Shown: piece by piece, positions 51,110-58,769 of the stretch
Position numbering within the stretch: position 1 is the stretch's first letter
How the letters are laid out: each line of letters starts with the position of its first letter
DNA from: an uncultured bacterium
GTDB taxonomy: Bacteria; Verrucomicrobiota; Kiritimatiellia; CAIKKV01; CAIJXV01
Reading direction: 5' to 3'
DNA: 64,000 nucleotides
Assembly: GCA_903824675.1 (NCBI GenBank)
Contig: CAIJXV010000103.1
Location: forward strand, 1-64,000
The notes under the pieces: model-generated
Told to the model about the DNA's origin: nothing
The model's input: only the letters and a program-made list of their open reading frames with translations
Database searches by the model: none
Translations under genes and position numbers: made by a program

Positions 51110-51240
51110 AAACGAGAGTCTAGCAACACCGGCCGCGGTTGCAAGAAACGCTTTCATTCGGTTTTTCATGTGGTTATAGTGAAACCATGAACTGCGAATG
51201 TGCCAAAATCAGGGGCTCAGGCGATGGAACAGGACATCCC

Positions 51241-54030
51241 ATGCCCCTGAACGCACAAGGTCCCGATGCATACCCGCCCATACTCCCGGTGGACCTCCAT
51301 GGCCTTTCGACCGACGATGCGCTGAGGGCGCTTGACTCGTCGCGCGATGGGCTAACCAGGCCGGAATCCGCCGCGCGCCTCGTGCGCTTCGGGCCCAACG
51401 CGCTCAAGGCCCGGCACAAGACTCCCCTCATCGTCTTGTTTCTCCGCCAACTGGCGAATCCACTGGCATACATCCTCCTGGTGGCAGCGCTCGTCAAACT
51501 GTTCGTCAAAGGCGTTCTCGATGCGGCCGTCATTGGGGCCGTGCTGGCGCTCATGGCCGTGATCGGTTTTGTGCAGGAACTGCGCGCCGAGAAGGCCATG
51601 GAGGCGCTCAATAACATGGTGACGCCCCGCAGCCGCGTGCGCCGGGGCGGCCAGGTGACCGCGGTGGCGGCGGCGGACCTCGTGCCGGGGGATCTCGTTA
51701 TTCTGGAAGCCGGCGACCGGGTGCCCGTGGACGGACGCCTGATCGAAGCGACCAATCTGAAGATCAACGAGTCGGCCCTGACCGGCGAATCCATGCCGGT
51801 GGAGAAACACACTGCGGCGTTGACCGGGGTCGTGGCCCTGGCGGACCGCAAGAACATGGTCTACATGGGCACCGTTCTGACCAACGGCCGGGCCACCGCG
51901 CTGACCGTCGCCACGGGCATGCAAACCGAGATGGGGCGTATCGCCGCGGCGATCCAGAATGTGCCGCAGGAAAAAACCCCGCTGCAGCGGAGCGTCGACC
52001 GCTTCGGCCGCGTCATGCTGTTCATCGTGCCCGGTATCTGCGCCCTGCTGACGCTGGCCGGCGTATACCGCGGGCTGCCGACCATGGACATCTTTCTGAT
52101 GGTGGTGGCCGCCGCGGTCTCCGCCGTACCCGAAGGACTCCCGGCGGTGGTCACGGTGACGCTCGCCGTCGGCATGCGCGTCATGGCCAAACGGCAGGCC
52201 ATTATCCGCCGCCTTGTGGCCGTAGAGACCCTGGGATCCACCACCGTCGTTTGCTCCGACAAAACCGGCACACTCACCCTGAACCAGATGACCGTCTCAC
52301 GCCTCTACGCCGATGGGCGATTCTACGACGTGGAGGGCAGCGGGTATGATCCCGTTGGCCAGATACGCGCCGACGGCCAGGCTGTCGCGGTCCAAAATGT
52401 TGCGACGCTGGAATGCCTGCTGCGGGCCGGGGCTCTTTGTAACGACGCCTTGCTTACCGGCGCGCCGCCTACTAGCAGCATTCTGGGCGACCCCACGGAA
52501 GGCGCGCTGGTCGTTGCGGCGGCGAAGGCGGGCCTGCGCAAGGAGCAACTGGAACTGGCCTGGCCCCGCCTCAACGAGATTCCATTCCAAAGCGAGCGGC
52601 AGTGGATGGCTACGCTCCATTCCAACTCCGGTAAACGGGTGCTCTTTGTCAAGGGCGCACCCGAGCGCGTGCTGGCGATGAGCGCGAACTGCGCCTGTCC
52701 CGGCGGCTCGGAGCCCCTGGATGAGGAAACGCGCCAGGCGATTCTCAAGGCCTCCGATCACCTGGCGGGGTCCGCCTTGCGCGTCATCGCCCTGGCCTAT
52801 GGCGACTATACCGGCCAGCCGGGCGAACTCAGCGAGGAGTCGCTGCGCGGGCGGTTGACATTCCTCGGCCTGGCCGGGATGAGCGATCCGCCCCGCGCGG
52901 AAGCGGCGGCGGCCGTACGCCAATTCCAGGAGGCCGGCATCCGGGCCGTCATGATCACGGGCGACAACCCGACCACCGCCACCGCGATCGCCCGCAGCAT
53001 CGGATTGCCCGAAGGCCGCCCCGTGACCGGCGCGGAAGTCGGCCGGATGAACGAGGCTGAACTGGATGACGTCGTTCGCGACACCTCGGTCTTCGCCCGC
53101 ATCGAGCCGCTGCACAAGTTGCGAATCGTCCAGGCCTTCAAGCGACAGGGCGAAGTCGTGGCCATGACCGGCGACGGGGTCAACGACGCGCCGGCGCTCG
53201 AAACCGCCGATATCGGCATCGCCATGGGCATCACGGGCACCGACGTGGCCAAGGAAGCCGCCGACCTGGTCCTGGCCGACGATAACTTCGCCTCGATTCT
53301 GGCGGCGGTCGAGGAAGGACGTTCCATATTCAATCGCCTGCGGAACGTCACGTTCTTCCTGCTGACCACTTGCTTCGGGGAATTGCTGGCCCTGATGTTG
53401 TGCGTCTTCTTCCTGGGTGTCGCGCCGCTCGAACCGCTTCAGATTCTGTGGATCAACCTGCTCACCGGCTCGATCATGGCCATTCCGTTGGGGTTGGAGC
53501 CCCGCACGGGGTTCGAACTGCGCCAGGCCCCCCGCGATCCGCGCGTGGGACTCTTGTATCCCGGACTGCTGCTGCGCAGCGGCTTTCTGGCGGCACTGCT
53601 GGGCGTCGGAGTCACCCTGCTGTTTGCCTGGACCTTGCAACACCACAACCTGCAGGAATCGCGCACCTTCGCTTTTTGCACCATTGTGGTCTTCGAATGG
53701 CTCGTGGCCTTCAACGCGCGATCGGACGAACTGACCATCTTCCGGCTCGGTGTCTTGCGCAACCGTCCGTTGCTGCTGGCTCTGGCGATTGCCATTGCCC
53801 TGCAGGTGGCCGTGATCCATCTGCCGTTTCTGCACCTGCCGTTCAACACGGTGCCGATGGACGGACATGAGTGGATCATCGCGATTACCCTGGGTGTCGG
53901 CGTTTTTCTAACCGAAACAGTGCGTAAGCTCATTGCCCCGCGCCTGTTCTCGCTCGGCAAGTGGAATCCCATTCGGTGGCCCCCACGCGCAGGATCAGCA
54001 AGGGCAAAGCCTCCCTATCGGAATCGATGA
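51241..54030 (+). CDS. P-type cation-transporting ATPase (P2A-like)
   Basis: 929 residues from ATG 51241 (AGGAC before it; an ATG at 51187 is also open). Domains: N-terminal cation-ATPase leader (LSTDDALRALDSSRDGLT), actuator with LTGESMPVEKH, M4 with PEGLPAVVTVTLAVG, phosphorylation site CSDKTGTLTLN (Asp340), nucleotide-binding part with KGAPERV, hinge MTGDGVNDAPALETADIGIAMG, and six C-terminal helices. The PEGLP of M4 matches calcium-type pumps, but in M6 the usual NLVTDG ligand motif reads NLLTGS, without the aspartate, so the ion cannot be read safely. First gene of the plus-strand block. Confidence 0.92.
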   Translation: MPLNAQGPDAYPPILPVDLHGLSTDDALRALDSSRDGLTRPESAARLVRFGPNALKARHKTPLIVLFLRQLANPLAYILLVAALVKLFVKGVLDAAVIGAVLALMAVIGFVQELRAEKAMEALNNMVTPRSRVRRGGQVTAVAAADLVPGDLVILEAGDRVPVDGRLIEATNLKINESALTGESMPVEKHTAALTGVVALADRKNMVYMGTVLTNGRATALTVATGMQTEMGRIAAAIQNVPQEKTPLQRSVDRFGRVMLFIVPGICALLTLAGVYRGLPTMDIFLMVVAAAVSAVPEGLPAVVTVTLAVGMRVMAKRQAIIRRLVAVETLGSTTVVCSDKTGTLTLNQMTVSRLYADGRFYDVEGSGYDPVGQIRADGQAVAVQNVATLECLLRAGALCNDALLTGAPPTSSILGDPTEGALVVAAAKAGLRKEQLELAWPRLNEIPFQSERQWMATLHSNSGKRVLFVKGAPERVLAMSANCACPGGSEPLDEETRQAILKASDHLAGSALRVIALAYGDYTGQPGELSEESLRGRLTFLGLAGMSDPPRAEAAAAVRQFQEAGIRAVMITGDNPTTATAIARSIGLPEGRPVTGAEVGRMNEAELDDVVRDTSVFARIEPLHKLRIVQAFKRQGEVVAMTGDGVNDAPALETADIGIAMGITGTDVAKEAADLVLADDNFASILAAVEEGRSIFNRLRNVTFFLLTTCFGELLALMLCVFFLGVAPLEPLQILWINLLTGSIMAIPLGLEPRTGFELRQAPRDPRVGLLYPGLLLRSGFLAALLGVGVTLLFAWTLQHHNLQESRTFAFCTIVVFEWLVAFNARSDELTIFRLGVLRNRPLLLALAIAIALQVAVIHLPFLHLPFNTVPMDGHEWIIAITLGVGVFLTETVRKLIAPRLFSLGKWNPIRWPPRAGSARAKPPYRNR

Positions 54031-54179
54031 AAACGCCGGGAATTCGATTCCGATATCGCCCCCGAGCAGGAGGATGCGTCATCATTACCATTTGTGACTA
54101 CGCTATGGCCGTGGCGGGGCTTGCCATGCAGTTCGGGTTGTGATACGGATTGACTCTGTTCAACCGAAAGGAGTACTGC

Positions 54180-56195
54180 ATGAAAAGGACTGATCTGGCC
54201 AAGTGCCTGTCGGTGGGAATCCTGCTGGCCGCCGTTTCCGCGCAAGCGGCTGGCCTGCCTGGGGACGCGGAGGCCGCAACGCATGGCGACGAGGCCGCCA
54301 GCGTTCAAATCGTCCGGGAGACCGAACAGAAGACGCCCAATTTTGTCTTCCGGCAGTATAACCTGGCGGTCCTTTCGCACTACTCCTACCTGATCGGCAG
54401 TGGCGGCGAGGCGCTGATTATTGATCCTGCCCGCGATATCAGCCGTTACCTGAAAGACGCACAGGAACTGGGTTTGAAGATCACTCGGGTCTACTTGACT
54501 CACTCCCACGCCGATTTTGTGGCGGGGCATGCCGAACTCGCAAAGGCCACCGGCGCAGAGATTGTCATGAACGAGGCCACCCGGGCCGGTTTTGCGCACA
54601 AGCCCGTCAAGGACGGCGACGCCATCACGTTCGGCGAGGTCCGCGGCGTGATCGTGACCACGCCCGGCCACACCCCCGACGGGACGTGCCTGTATGTATA
54701 CTGCCCGGCGACTGAAAACAAACCCCGAATGCTCCTCACCGGCGACACCCTGTTCATCGGCAGCGTGGGCCGTCCCGACCTGATGGGCGAGGGCATGAGC
54801 GCCGCCGCGCTGGCCGAAATGGGCTTCCATTCCTGGAAGGATAAACTCTCCAAACTCCCCGACGACACGAAGTTTTTCCCGGCCCACGGCGCAGGATCCC
54901 TCTGCGGCGCCCATCTGAGCGATAAGCCGGTTTCCACGATCGGAGAACAACGCCGGGAGAACGTCTATCTTCAGCACAAGGACCTGCTGTCCTATGTGAT
55001 GGCCGTTATTGACGGCCTGCCGGATGCCCCGCAGTACTTCAAGCACAACGCCAAAATGAATCACGATGGCCCGCCCCTCGTGGATTGGGACCACACCACG
55101 CCAGCGGCCCTTCCCGCCGCCGCGGTGCTCGCCCAGGGGCAGAAGGGCGCGTGGATTATCGACGTCCGCGACGCGAAGGCGTTCGCCACCGCTCATCCGC
55201 AGGGCGCGATCAGCATCGGCATCAGGGGCCGGTTCGAGACGTGGGTCGGCATCATGGTCCCGTGGGGGGAATCCTTTGTTCTCGCGGGCTCGGACGACGA
55301 GGTGCGCGAGGCGGCTTTCCGCCTGAAGCGGATCGGTTATGACACGCCCGCCGGCTTCCTCCAGGGCGGCTTGGAGGCGTGGAAACAGGCCCAGTTGCCC
55401 GTCGGATCCCTGAAGCTCTTGAAGCCCCAGGATCTGTACCGGCAGATGCAAGCCGGCACCGCTCCGATTGTCGTGGACGTGCGGCTCCCGAGCGAGTGGA
55501 TGGCGTTGCGCATTGGCAATGTGCTCAACATCCCGATCAACAAGATGTTTACCGACAGTAAGCGGCTTTCCAAAGACATGCCGGTGCTGACGGTCTGCAA
55601 CTCCGCCTACCGCTCCAGCATGGGGGCTTCGGTCTTGCTCAAGCAGGGCTTCAAGGACGTGGTCAACATGGAAGGCGGCAGCGAGGCCTGGATCTCGGCC
55701 GGTTTGCCGACCCTGGGCGCCACCGGAGGCGGACACGAGACGGCCGCCACCCCGGCGCGGGCCGTCAGGCTGCCGGACCGTATTGCCTCCGCGGAACTCA
55801 AGCGACTGATCATGGACCTGCCTGGCACGTTCGACTTGGTGGACGTGCGACCTGCGGCGCAGTTTGCCGACTTCAGTTTGCCGGGCGCAAGGAATGCGGA
55901 CATCGCCGACGTGATCGCCAATCCCGCCTACCTGAACGGCGCGGTTCCGCTCGTGATCGTGGACCGCGACGGTTCCCTGGCCATGGCCGTGGGCGGTATT
56001 CTTTCGCAGAAGACGGCACGCCCCATCAAGGTGCTTTTTGGCGGGCTGGAAGCCTACTGGAGCGAGTCCGAAATATCGGCGCCATCCTCCGGTTCACCCC
56101 TGCCGGCGCCCGTTGTCAAGCCGGCCGCGCCCGCAGCGGCACCGGCGGCGGCGCCGGCTCCTGAACCGCCCAAAAAGAAGAGCGCCGGATGCTGA
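54180..56195 (+). CDS. Secreted metallo-beta-lactamase-fold protein with three rhodanese domains (persulfide-dioxygenase-like)
   Basis: 671 residues, signal peptide (CLSVGILLAAVSAQAAG). Residues about 45-270 are an ETHE1-like metallo-beta-lactamase domain: FRQYNLAVLSHYSYLIG, metal site THSHADFVAGH (His108), TTPGHTPDGT, LLTGDTLFIGSVGRPDL. Then three rhodaneses: about 325-415 (no active Cys), about 420-520 with Cys473 in VCNSAYRSS, and about 545-625 (Cys position replaced, VDRDGS). The tail is Ala/Pro-rich and ends KKKSAGC. It should handle glutathione-type persulfides or thiosulfate in the periplasm; AAAGGAG gives the start. Next gene overlaps: sulfur transporter. Confidence 0.9.
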   Translation: MKRTDLAKCLSVGILLAAVSAQAAGLPGDAEAATHGDEAASVQIVRETEQKTPNFVFRQYNLAVLSHYSYLIGSGGEALIIDPARDISRYLKDAQELGLKITRVYLTHSHADFVAGHAELAKATGAEIVMNEATRAGFAHKPVKDGDAITFGEVRGVIVTTPGHTPDGTCLYVYCPATENKPRMLLTGDTLFIGSVGRPDLMGEGMSAAALAEMGFHSWKDKLSKLPDDTKFFPAHGAGSLCGAHLSDKPVSTIGEQRRENVYLQHKDLLSYVMAVIDGLPDAPQYFKHNAKMNHDGPPLVDWDHTTPAALPAAAVLAQGQKGAWIIDVRDAKAFATAHPQGAISIGIRGRFETWVGIMVPWGESFVLAGSDDEVREAAFRLKRIGYDTPAGFLQGGLEAWKQAQLPVGSLKLLKPQDLYRQMQAGTAPIVVDVRLPSEWMALRIGNVLNIPINKMFTDSKRLSKDMPVLTVCNSAYRSSMGASVLLKQGFKDVVNMEGGSEAWISAGLPTLGATGGGHETAATPARAVRLPDRIASAELKRLIMDLPGTFDLVDVRPAAQFADFSLPGARNADIADVIANPAYLNGAVPLVIVDRDGSLAMAVGGILSQKTARPIKVLFGGLEAYWSESEISAPSSGSPLPAPVVKPAAPAAAPAAAPAPEPPKKKSAGC

Positions 56196-56206
56196 AAGGA
56201 AGGGAC

Positions 56207-56740
56207 ATGCAAACGAATACGGATAAAGCAACTATGGGTTCTCAACCCTATTCAAACCCCTATCTGGCCGGGGTTTTGCTCGGGCTTGTGCTGTTGGCTT
56301 CCTTCGTGATTCTCGGGGCGGGACTGGGAGCGTCGGGCGGGATCGCCCGCATCGGAGCTTCGGTCTCGATGTGCCTTTCGGCGCCCCATACGCTGGGCAG
56401 CGAATACTTCGGCAAATGGGGCGCCAGTCCTCTGAACTATTACCTGGTCTTCATGTTTGCGGGCACTTTTTTGGGGGCGCTTTTCTCGGCGCTCCTGGCC
56501 CATCGCGTGCGCATCCAGGTCGAGCGAGGAGCCGCGTCGTCCGTGAGTCGCCGACTCGGGTACACCCTCGCGGGCGGTGTGATTGTCGGATTCGCAAGCC
56601 GCCTGGCCCAGGGATGCACTTCCGGTCAGGCGCTCAGCGGAGGGGCTCTGCTGCTCACCGGCAGCCTCGTGTTCATGCTCTGCCTTTTTGCCAGCGGCTA
56701 TGCCACCGCCTGGTTCGTCCGGAGGCAATGGCATGATTAA
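56207..56740 (+). CDS. YeeE/YedE-family sulfur transporter, N-terminal half
   Basis: 177 residues with about five transmembrane helices (YLAGVLLGLVLLASFVILGAG..., NYYLVFMFAGTFLGALFSALL, LGYTLAGGVIVGFASRLAQGCTSG). YeeE/TsuA proteins import thiosulfate through a core of conserved cysteines in GxxxQGCTSG-type motifs; this half has RLAQGCTSGQALSGG. AAGGAAGGGAC precedes ATG 56207 (an ATG at 56189 is also open). The stop lies 8 bases inside the next gene, which carries the second half, so the pair should assemble into one transporter. Confidence 0.9.
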   Translation: MQTNTDKATMGSQPYSNPYLAGVLLGLVLLASFVILGAGLGASGGIARIGASVSMCLSAPHTLGSEYFGKWGASPLNYYLVFMFAGTFLGALFSALLAHRVRIQVERGAASSVSRRLGYTLAGGVIVGFASRLAQGCTSGQALSGGALLLTGSLVFMLCLFASGYATAWFVRRQWHD

Positions 56741-58769
56741 TACGCTGTATAACCTTGACACGCTCGGCACGCCGACGGCCTTTTTCCTGGCCTTATTGAT
56801 TGGGATCGGTTTCGGCTTTGCGCTGGAGCGGGCCGGCTTCAGCAGTTCAAGGCGCCTGGCCGGCGTCTTCTACTTCACCGACATGGCGGTCGTGAAGGTG
56901 ATGTTCTCGGCGCTCATCACCGCCCTGCTGGGCCTGTCCTATCTGGTCGCCTTCGACTGGATTCACCTGGACCAGATCTTCCTCATGCCAACCGTCTACG
57001 GCGCGCAGATCATGGGCGGCCTGTTGTTCGGCGTAGGATTCGCCATGGGCGGATGGTGCCCCGGCACCGCGGCGGCCGGCATGGCCGCAGGCCGGATCGA
57101 CGCGTTCGTATTCCTGGTCGGCACGGTCGGGGGAAGCATCCTGTTCAACGAACTCTTTCCCGTAATCCGCTCGCTGTACACGGCGGGGGACCAGGGCGTG
57201 CAGATGGCTTACGACTCTCTGGGCATATCGCGAAATGCGTTCATCCTGGCTTTCACGCTCGTTGCCGTGGTCGCATTCTGGCTGGTCGAATGGGCAGAGA
57301 AGGCACGCACGGGCTGTTCCACGTATCTGGGCACCCCGTTCCTCAAGGCGTTCAGCCTGGCCCTCGTGGTTGTGGCGGCCGGCCTGTTCGTGTTGTCACC
57401 CGCCGCCTCCCAAAGTTCCGACGAAAAGCCGGGCACCATCGGGGTGACCGCCCCTGAAGAAAAGACCCTTATGGCCGATGTCGACCGGGCGCGCGACCAC
57501 ATCGAGCCGGAGGCGTTGGCCGATCGCCTGATGGCAGGAGACCCGGATCTGGTGCTCGTGGATGTGCGGCCAGCGGCCGAGTTCAACGCCTTTCACATCC
57601 GCGGTGCCATCCATGTGCTCTTGCCCCAACTGGCGGAGACGCTTCAGCCCCACAAGAACCAGGGGCGGATTGTTCTGTACTCGAACGGCATGACCCATCC
57701 CGCCCAGGCCCGTGATTCGCTTCAGCGCCAGGGGTTCGGCAACGTCTACCTGCTCACGGACGGTCTCCAGGGATTCCGGGATCGCTGTCTCAAGCCCGTC
57801 TCGTTGCGGCCGGAACCGGTGTCGGCTCCAGCCGCCGCCCGGATCAACGCCTGGCGCGCGTTCTTTACTGCGCCCGCCCCCCTTCCCGCCCGGGCCGGCA
57901 TCGCCTCGCCGCCGGGAAACGAAGCCAAACCGCGCGTTGTCGAAACCGACTGGCTGGCCGCCAGACTTGAAGCGCCCGGCCTCAAGATCCTCGATCTTAG
58001 GCCTCAGCCGGAGTACAACACCTCTCACATTCCGGGCTCACTCAGCCTCAACGTGGAAAGCCTTCGGGGCAACCTGGGCGGCGTTCCGTCCATGCTTCTG
58101 CCCGCCCCGATGCTGGCAGCTCAGTTCTCGCTGCTGGGCCTGAATCCTGCGGATGCCATCGTGGTCGTCACCGGCGACAAGGTCCATGACGCCACCCTGG
58201 TTGGAATGGGGTTCGAGCGGCTGGGACACCTGAACTTCGCCATCCTGGACGGCGGCTATGCCAAGTGGGCTCAGGAGGGACGACCCACGGACGCCGCTTT
58301 GCCAGCCGTGACGGCATCAAGCTACCCGGCGCAGCCGGCTGCCGATCCTTTCACCGTGGACTACCGCTTTGTTTCGTCCAGGATTGGCAAACCCGACACC
58401 GCGATCATCGATGTTCGGCCAGCGGACTTCTTCACAGGAAAGAAGTCCGACGAGGCCCGTGCCGGTCATATCCCCGGCGCGATCAACCGCCCGTATACCG
58501 AGGACGTCATTTCGGGAACCAATAAGGTCGTCACCTTCAAGCCGCTGGCGGCGCTGGCCGCCGACTACGCCCGGATGATCCCGTCGAAGGATACGGAAGT
58601 CATTGTCCACTGCCGCACCGGCCACCAGGCCAGCCAGTCTTTCTTCGTGCTGAAGCATCTACTGGGGTATACGAATGTGCGCTGGTATGATGCGGGTTGG
58701 ACGGAATGGGCGGCGCGAAGCGAACTCCCCATCTCAAACGAAACACGCGGCGACTCACCGGCGAAGTAG
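56733..58769 (+). CDS. YeeE/YedE C-terminal half fused to three rhodanese domains
   Basis: 678 residues. Residues 1-235 are the second YeeE half (FGFALERAGFSSSRRLAGVFYF, GVGFAMGGWCPGTAAAGMAAGRIDA with the transport cysteine, ending in a helix FSLALVVVAAGLFVLSPAA). Then three rhodaneses: about 260-350 (active loop YSNGMT, Cys missing), about 410-520 (TGDKVHDAT, Cys missing), about 550-665 with active Cys627 in HCRTGHQAS. The last two form a thiosulfate-sulfurtransferase-like tandem. GGAGG 7 bases before ATG 56733. It probably takes sulfur from the imported compound directly at the membrane. Confidence 0.9.
   Translation: MINTLYNLDTLGTPTAFFLALLIGIGFGFALERAGFSSSRRLAGVFYFTDMAVVKVMFSALITALLGLSYLVAFDWIHLDQIFLMPTVYGAQIMGGLLFGVGFAMGGWCPGTAAAGMAAGRIDAFVFLVGTVGGSILFNELFPVIRSLYTAGDQGVQMAYDSLGISRNAFILAFTLVAVVAFWLVEWAEKARTGCSTYLGTPFLKAFSLALVVVAAGLFVLSPAASQSSDEKPGTIGVTAPEEKTLMADVDRARDHIEPEALADRLMAGDPDLVLVDVRPAAEFNAFHIRGAIHVLLPQLAETLQPHKNQGRIVLYSNGMTHPAQARDSLQRQGFGNVYLLTDGLQGFRDRCLKPVSLRPEPVSAPAAARINAWRAFFTAPAPLPARAGIASPPGNEAKPRVVETDWLAARLEAPGLKILDLRPQPEYNTSHIPGSLSLNVESLRGNLGGVPSMLLPAPMLAAQFSLLGLNPADAIVVVTGDKVHDATLVGMGFERLGHLNFAILDGGYAKWAQEGRPTDAALPAVTASSYPAQPAADPFTVDYRFVSSRIGKPDTAIIDVRPADFFTGKKSDEARAGHIPGAINRPYTEDVISGTNKVVTFKPLAALAADYARMIPSKDTEVIVHCRTGHQASQSFFVLKHLLGYTNVRWYDAGWTEWAARSELPISNETRGDSPAK

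Follow-up and report, generated by a model that had tools for sequence, protein, structure and literature searches.

A conserved three-gene cassette of a CstB-like protein and a split YeeE transporter with fused rhodaneses: a candidate route for sulfane sulfur import

The cassette and its distribution

The window analyzed here, a 64,000-nucleotide stretch of contig CAIJXV010000103.1 from an uncultured bacterium of the class Kiritimatiellia, holds a cassette of three genes at positions 54180-58769. According to the open reading frame (ORF) listing, all lie on the forward strand and encode protein 1 (54180..56195, 671 amino acids (aa)), protein 2 (56207..56740, 177 aa) and protein 3 (56733..58769, 678 aa); 11 bases separate genes 1 and 2, and genes 2 and 3 overlap by 8 bases. 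Pfam assigned Lactamase_B and three Rhodanese stretches to protein 1. Sulf_transp was matched in both other proteins, by its C-terminal part (profile positions 178-308) in protein 2 and by its N-terminal part (6-217) in protein 3, which has three further Rhodanese stretches. An earlier note on this DNA had reported three consecutive, nearly overlapping genes combining a metallo-β-lactamase (MBL) domain, rhodaneses and the halves of a YeeE transporter, and both the ORFs and the Pfam matches agree.

The cassette is genuine and conserved as a unit. Within a first search set of 146 genomes, comprising the window's own and its relatives, 12 relatives carried a homologue of protein 3 (56-77% identity), full length in every case except G015. 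The order 1-2-3 was retained wherever a relative's contig held the cassette, and a protein 1 homologue shared the contig with protein 3 in relatives other than G133, where it lay on a different contig; G016 contained two complete copies (contigs G016:C17 and G016:C30). The joining of a transporter half to rhodaneses in one chain, also claimed by the earlier note, is genuine: protein 3 is a single open frame in 75 homologues, the window's copy included, which rules out a frameshift or assembly artifact behind the fusion, and the only broken frame is that of G015.

We then scanned 84,980 species with two exact peptide patterns, G[VI]FYF[TR]DM and LYSNGMTH, an approach that more divergent members escape. 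This yielded 118 relatives, the best 80 of which were analyzed as loci: 68 had the complete ordered cassette, 4 had a shortened protein 1 and 8 lacked one or two members, being cut at a contig end (n = 7) or, in L148, having a partial protein 3. By label, the carriers span about ten phyla, including Planctomycetota, Thermodesulfobacteriota, Lentisphaerota, Verrucomicrobiota, Kiritimatiellota, Myxococcota, Omnitrophota, Walliibacteriota, Acidobacteriota and a few Pseudomonadota bins. Among them are the sulfate reducers Desulfoluna limicola, Desulfoferrobacter suflitae, Fundidesulfovibrio agrisoli and Desulforhabdus sp., and many anaerobic bacteria of the Planctomycetes-Verrucomicrobia-Chlamydiae (PVC) group. 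On the tree, phylum labels are intermixed (24 changes where 9 would be the minimum), a pattern that fits horizontal spread, although foreign contigs in bins or paralogues could also split groups. A check for spread on plasmids found no full-length match.

Domain anatomy and predicted topology

Protein 1 resembles the persulfide dioxygenase CstB. Its residues 59-511 match 3TP9 by sequence (E = 6e-74), CstB 3R2U was also matched, and a Foldseek search with the predicted fold recovered 3TP9 (E = 1.1e-39); in this part an MBL domain, a pseudo-rhodanese and an active rhodanese follow one another. The MBL domain (54348..54959, +) is persulfide-dioxygenase-like, with predicted metal ligands H108, H164 and D189 and a CstB-like C242. 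H108, D112, H164, D189, H236 and C242 are invariant in the 66 full-length homologues, and H110 is present in 62 of them. Based on Pfam and alignment, rhodanese 1 (55113..55394, +) has Ala369 at the cysteine site, a position that is Cys in 27 of the 66, and rhodanese 2 (55419..55718, +) is of the active type, with the loop CNSAYRSS and C473 (Cys in 66/66). Beyond the CstB-like part lies a third, pseudo-rhodanese domain (55770..56084, +), with Asp595 at the cysteine site (VDRDGS; Asp in 66/66). AlphaFold models of the MBL domain and rhodaneses were usable.

Protein 1 begins with a predicted Sec signal peptide, MKRTDLAKCLSVGILLAAVSAQAA (54180..54251, +), and a hydrophobic N-terminal stretch was found in all 66 full-length homologues by a hydropathy heuristic used in place of SignalP. 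The signal peptide is absent from unfused CstB-like homologues, which start at or near protein 1 residue 54-65, except for two that may have been assigned a start codon too far upstream.

Proteins 2 and 3 are the two halves of the transporter. The earlier note had described a split YeeE/TsuA; the two halves are real, but they correspond to the known PmpA/PmpB (YedE1E2) pair, in which short proteins each represent one YeeE half, and a broken TsuA was rejected on that ground (PMC11582611, PMC10812762). YedE1E2 has been shown experimentally to import zero-valent sulfur, with one Cys needed per half (PMC10812762). Protein 2 is the C-terminal half, of the PmpA/YedE1 type, with four transmembrane (TM) helices, a predicted N-in/C-in orientation and C137 (QGCTSGQ) conserved in 72 of 72 homologues. 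Protein 3 contains the N-terminal half, of the PmpB/YedE2 type, fused to three rhodaneses. The topology analysis places TM1-5 of its PmpB-like membrane part at 56733..57335 (+), a region that includes C109 (GGWCPGT; 75/75), and a sixth helix at 57336..57398 (+).

The charge bias averaged over 75 homologues indicates six TM helices with both N- and C-termini outside. In the same class, unfused PmpB has one helix fewer: it stops at about residue 186, and its C-terminus is predicted inside. Because the added helix puts the C-terminus outside, the triple rhodanese of protein 3 is predicted to be periplasmic, beside the secreted protein 1. The channeling suggested earlier took the opposite arrangement, with cytoplasmic rhodaneses receiving imported sulfur as TsuB/YeeD does for TsuA. 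Known cytoplasmic partner logic and natural YeeE-YeeD fusions, YeeD being the cytoplasmic partner, speak for such a layout (PMC11073785), but the charge distribution, the shorter unfused PmpB and the secretion of protein 1 make it quite improbable here. As originally worded the channeling idea thus does not stand: any channeling would occur on the entry side, unlike with cytoplasmic TsuB/YeeD.

Rhodanese 1 of protein 3 (57492..57797, +) is a pseudo-rhodanese with Ser317 (LYSNGMTHPAQARD) at the cysteine site in 75 of 75 homologues. As LYSNGMTH was itself a scan pattern, its invariance is in part a product of the search; relatives found without that pattern all have the serine and show LYSNGMTH too. 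Rhodaneses 2 and 3 (57942..58724, +) form a tandem thiosulfate-sulfurtransferase fold (8K55, E = 3e-35; Foldseek 1UAR, E = 2.8e-20) whose second unit is of the active type, with the loop CRTGHQAS and C627 conserved in 75 of 75. The count of six rhodanese domains given by the earlier note was correct, but only two keep the catalytic Cys in the window and four are Cys-less, ruling out that all six are active.

Six loci of the same class hold unfused CstB-like, PmpA and PmpB genes in the same order (confirmed by Pfam on one set), with predicted sizes of 458-585 aa, mostly 172-200 aa and 181-197 aa, respectively. Fused and unfused forms coexist in G106, and in Desulfoferrobacter the cassette adjoins an unfused CstB-like gene; for this reason the cassette looks like an exported offshoot of an unfused CstB-PmpA-PmpB operon rather than its replacement, with evolution probably running from the cytoplasmic operon to the cassette. 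One unfused CstB-like ORF (L068:4520-6277, from G060) has approximately 120 extra N-terminal residues predicted, which may reflect a misplaced start or an additional segment.

The C-terminal cysteine tail of protein 1

The earlier note had missed a universal cysteine tail at the end of protein 1. A Pro/Ala-rich linker leads to the sequence (K)KSAGC (56085..56192, +), with C671 at 56190-56192. Among 72 homologues with a readable end, 70 terminate in SAGC and 2 in SVGC. The linker is 31% Pro and 22% Ala, and Cys-free over the 35 residues examined; its right-aligned pairwise identity is 20%, compared to 96% for the last five residues. Linker and tail are unstructured in the predicted model.

The tail DNA (GCG GGG TGC TGA, followed by a nearby ATG) could double as the gene 2 ribosome-binding site in many loci, and the codons GCG GGG are over-used. 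A role solely as ribosome-binding site is disfavored by 20 loci in which 60 bases or more separate the stop from the conserved NPY motif of gene 2: these tails, too, read SAGC or SVGC, and their Ala codons are mixed, with GCC, GCT, GCA and GCG all occurring. Because the tail is kept in these loci, selection on the protein is the better reading. A general sorting signal was rejected, as the full motif was found once in the window's genome.

The four shortened loci (L083, L099, L142 and L145) replace protein 1 with an exported protein of 185-255 aa consisting of the third pseudo-rhodanese, linker and tail only, and no full-length MBL/rhodanese copy was found elsewhere in these four genomes. L083 is labeled Accumulibacter yet is placed among Lentisphaerota sequences on the tree, and may be a misplaced contig. 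That pseudo-rhodanese and tail persist where the MBL part has been lost gives the strongest hint of a tail function on the transporter side, and on this account the tail probably serves the membrane half of the cassette.

Candidate function and comparison with known systems

We favor, at a probability of roughly 0.5, a periplasmic cassette for the capture and import of sulfane sulfur, derived from a cytoplasmic operon of the CstB-PmpA-PmpB type. The earlier note proposed uptake of thiosulfate or persulfide, and uptake of thiosulfate or sulfane sulfur is retained as the best reading, by analogy with homologues, from which we infer substrate and direction. C627 of protein 3 would take sulfane sulfur from thiosulfate, polysulfide or persulfide in the periplasm. 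The flexible KSAGC arm of protein 1 might ferry it between rhodanese sites, including C473, and the mouth of the transporter, as an integral substitute for glutathione-like thiols, of which there is little outside the cytoplasm. The YeeE pair would then use C109 and C137 to hand sulfur inward to an acceptor in the cytoplasm. The MBL domain would be an accessory that oxidizes or hydrolyzes surplus persulfide, a role suggested by its loss in four genomes, and the pseudo-rhodaneses could be docking or assembly modules. Only tentatively do we propose the stronger version, a membrane-anchored periplasmic relay in which the tethered arm on the secreted partner shuttles persulfide sulfur between the rhodanese sites and the split YeeE mouth, letting anaerobes import sulfane sulfur independently of small thiols.

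Several lines of evidence favor periplasmic capture and import: the conservation of the cassette across phyla, the active CRTGHQ loop on a thiosulfate-sulfurtransferase fold, the predicted periplasmic position of both soluble parts, and an invariant tail on a variable linker. Cysteines are conserved in all three proteins (C242, C473 and C671 in protein 1, C137 in protein 2, C109 and C627 in protein 3), and the equivalents of the Cys needed in each half of YedE1E2 are invariant here. Other points weigh against it. Topology was predicted from hydropathy and charge bias; the transporter half was poorly modeled by AlphaFold (pLDDT <60 in most blocks), so models lend no support to a contact between rhodanese and pore; and tail codon conservation partly overlaps the gene 2 ribosome-binding region in many loci. 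The cassette members are known here from their sequences, substrate and direction are borrowed from homologues, and a sulfur-carrier role of the tail is conjecture.

The strongest competing explanation is periplasmic oxidative detoxification by a relocated CstB, whose MBL iron site would use O2 to oxidize outside persulfides to sulfite or thiosulfate, with the YeeE pair importing the product. The invariance of all MBL metal ligands and of the CstB-like Cys fits this, as do the CstB-type best structural matches. However, neither cytochrome bd nor the haem-copper oxidase COX1 was detected in the window's genome, which is 96% complete, and none of 12 cassette-bearing genomes from the host's class or order (its own included) had COX1, so O2 is probably rare for cassette hosts of that class or order; COX1 was present in all four sulfate-reducer genomes tested. 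Four genomes also do without the MBL part yet keep the rest. We therefore consider detoxification unlikely: the MBL domain may use O2, but such a role is unlikely to be central.

Neighboring genes of the cassette loci included no clearly recurrent sulfur partner and no conserved regulator; because no such partner recurs nearby, the three genes look self-sufficient. The absence of an adjoining regulator bears on whether the cassette might instead export sulfur or sulfide, its rhodaneses accepting sulfur that leaves the cell, or act as a sensor. YeeE-like units can act in signal transduction, as SoxT1B does (PMC11582611), but the one histidine-kinase-like cluster, near 12 loci, occupies scattered positions, and YedE1E2 moves sulfur inward only (PMC10812762), so we give this idea little credence. 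Import of selenium, to which some YedE proteins are linked, is scarcely credible: NCBIfam matches to selenium YedE/FdhT models were weak and far below cut-off, and among 13 genomes from the host's class or order SelD exceeded its cut-off in only one, which was not the window's genome.

The only other notable recurrence was an RND/DUF6132-like cluster near four loci (L082, L100, L130 and L154), where genes for RND efflux, for a TolC-like protein and for a small, Cys-containing membrane protein, DUF6132-like by eye, lie nearby. No TusA-like gene occurs in the cassette, and the nearest TusA domains are on other contigs. Outside the window, a 783-aa frame of the window's genome (G000:C105:26497-28467, -) has TusA and NIR_SIR (sulfite reductase) matches, an uncommon combination that might accept sulfur in the cytoplasm, and an 844-aa frame (G000:C61:23635-24198, +) has rhodanese and TusA matches. 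Two long antisense ORFs at the locus, of 573 aa opposite gene 1 (54015-55736, -) and 523 aa opposite the upstream gene (51139-54030), are probably spurious, the DNA being GC-rich.

How sulfane sulfur enters the cytoplasm from outside the inner membrane is an open question in sulfur-cycling bacteria (PMC11582611). The cassette provides a compact, genetically linked candidate for this step in named sulfate reducers and many anaerobic PVC bacteria, and its conserved cysteines and natural minimal version lacking the MBL domain make the proposed route directly testable.

Compared with CstB (Staphylococcus aureus 3R2U; Alicyclobacillus homologue 3TP9), protein 1 has the same order of the first three domains, the same predicted metal ligands, the Cys next to the MBL site and the active Cys in the second rhodanese; the inactive central rhodanese of CstB is matched by Ala369 in the window, though 27 of 66 homologues have Cys there. 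By analogy with CstB-type enzymes, O2-dependent persulfide oxidation by protein 1 is possible. Whereas CstB has approximately 450-480 aa, ends after the second rhodanese and bears no export signal, protein 1 has 671 aa, is predicted to be exported, adds a third pseudo-rhodanese, the Pro/Ala linker and the KSAGC tail, and is encoded with a fused transporter. SoxY, with its GGCGG arm, and DsrC are persulfide carriers with a mobile C-terminal Cys. Protein 1 shares with them an invariant Cys at a flexible C-terminus, but the KSAGC motif is different, the domain is unrelated and a carrier function here would be conjectural.

TsuA/YeeE, which takes up thiosulfate, shares the Sulf_transp fold and two of its three functional cysteines with the cassette, but is one chain of 330-350 aa rather than two. 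The third, TsuA C22, has no equivalent in protein 3, which is Cys-free before C109. Its partner TsuB/YeeD is cytoplasmic and TusA-like, whereas the cassette's sulfur-transfer domains are predicted to lie outside. The rhodaneses of protein 3 match two- and three-domain sulfurtransferases (SseA/TST, YnjE and EanB) in sequence and fold, with a last domain of the active type, but those enzymes are not fused to a transporter.

Closest to the membrane part are PmpA/PmpB of Serratia and YedE1/YedE2 of Cupriavidus and Sinorhizobium, a heterodimeric zero-valent sulfur importer likewise built from two halves with one conserved Cys each and often encoded near a persulfide dioxygenase gene, as in the cassette. 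PmpA and PmpB have approximately 130 aa and four TM helices; protein 2 has four in 177 aa, protein 3 has six predicted helices plus three rhodaneses, and both membrane halves have diverged from the known short proteins. In the open-access papers searched, which leave out most subscription papers, neither a comparable YeeE-rhodanese fusion nor an exported CstB nor a KSAGC tail was described. The domain set, which the earlier note had called unfamiliar, therefore appears new in its fusion, but persulfide dioxygenase with PmpA and PmpB is a known operon theme that occurs unfused in the same class. The cassette is without some of the features that define CstB, PmpA/PmpB and TsuA as described; each of its domains is known, and it appears to rearrange a known sulfur-handling operon in a way not described before.

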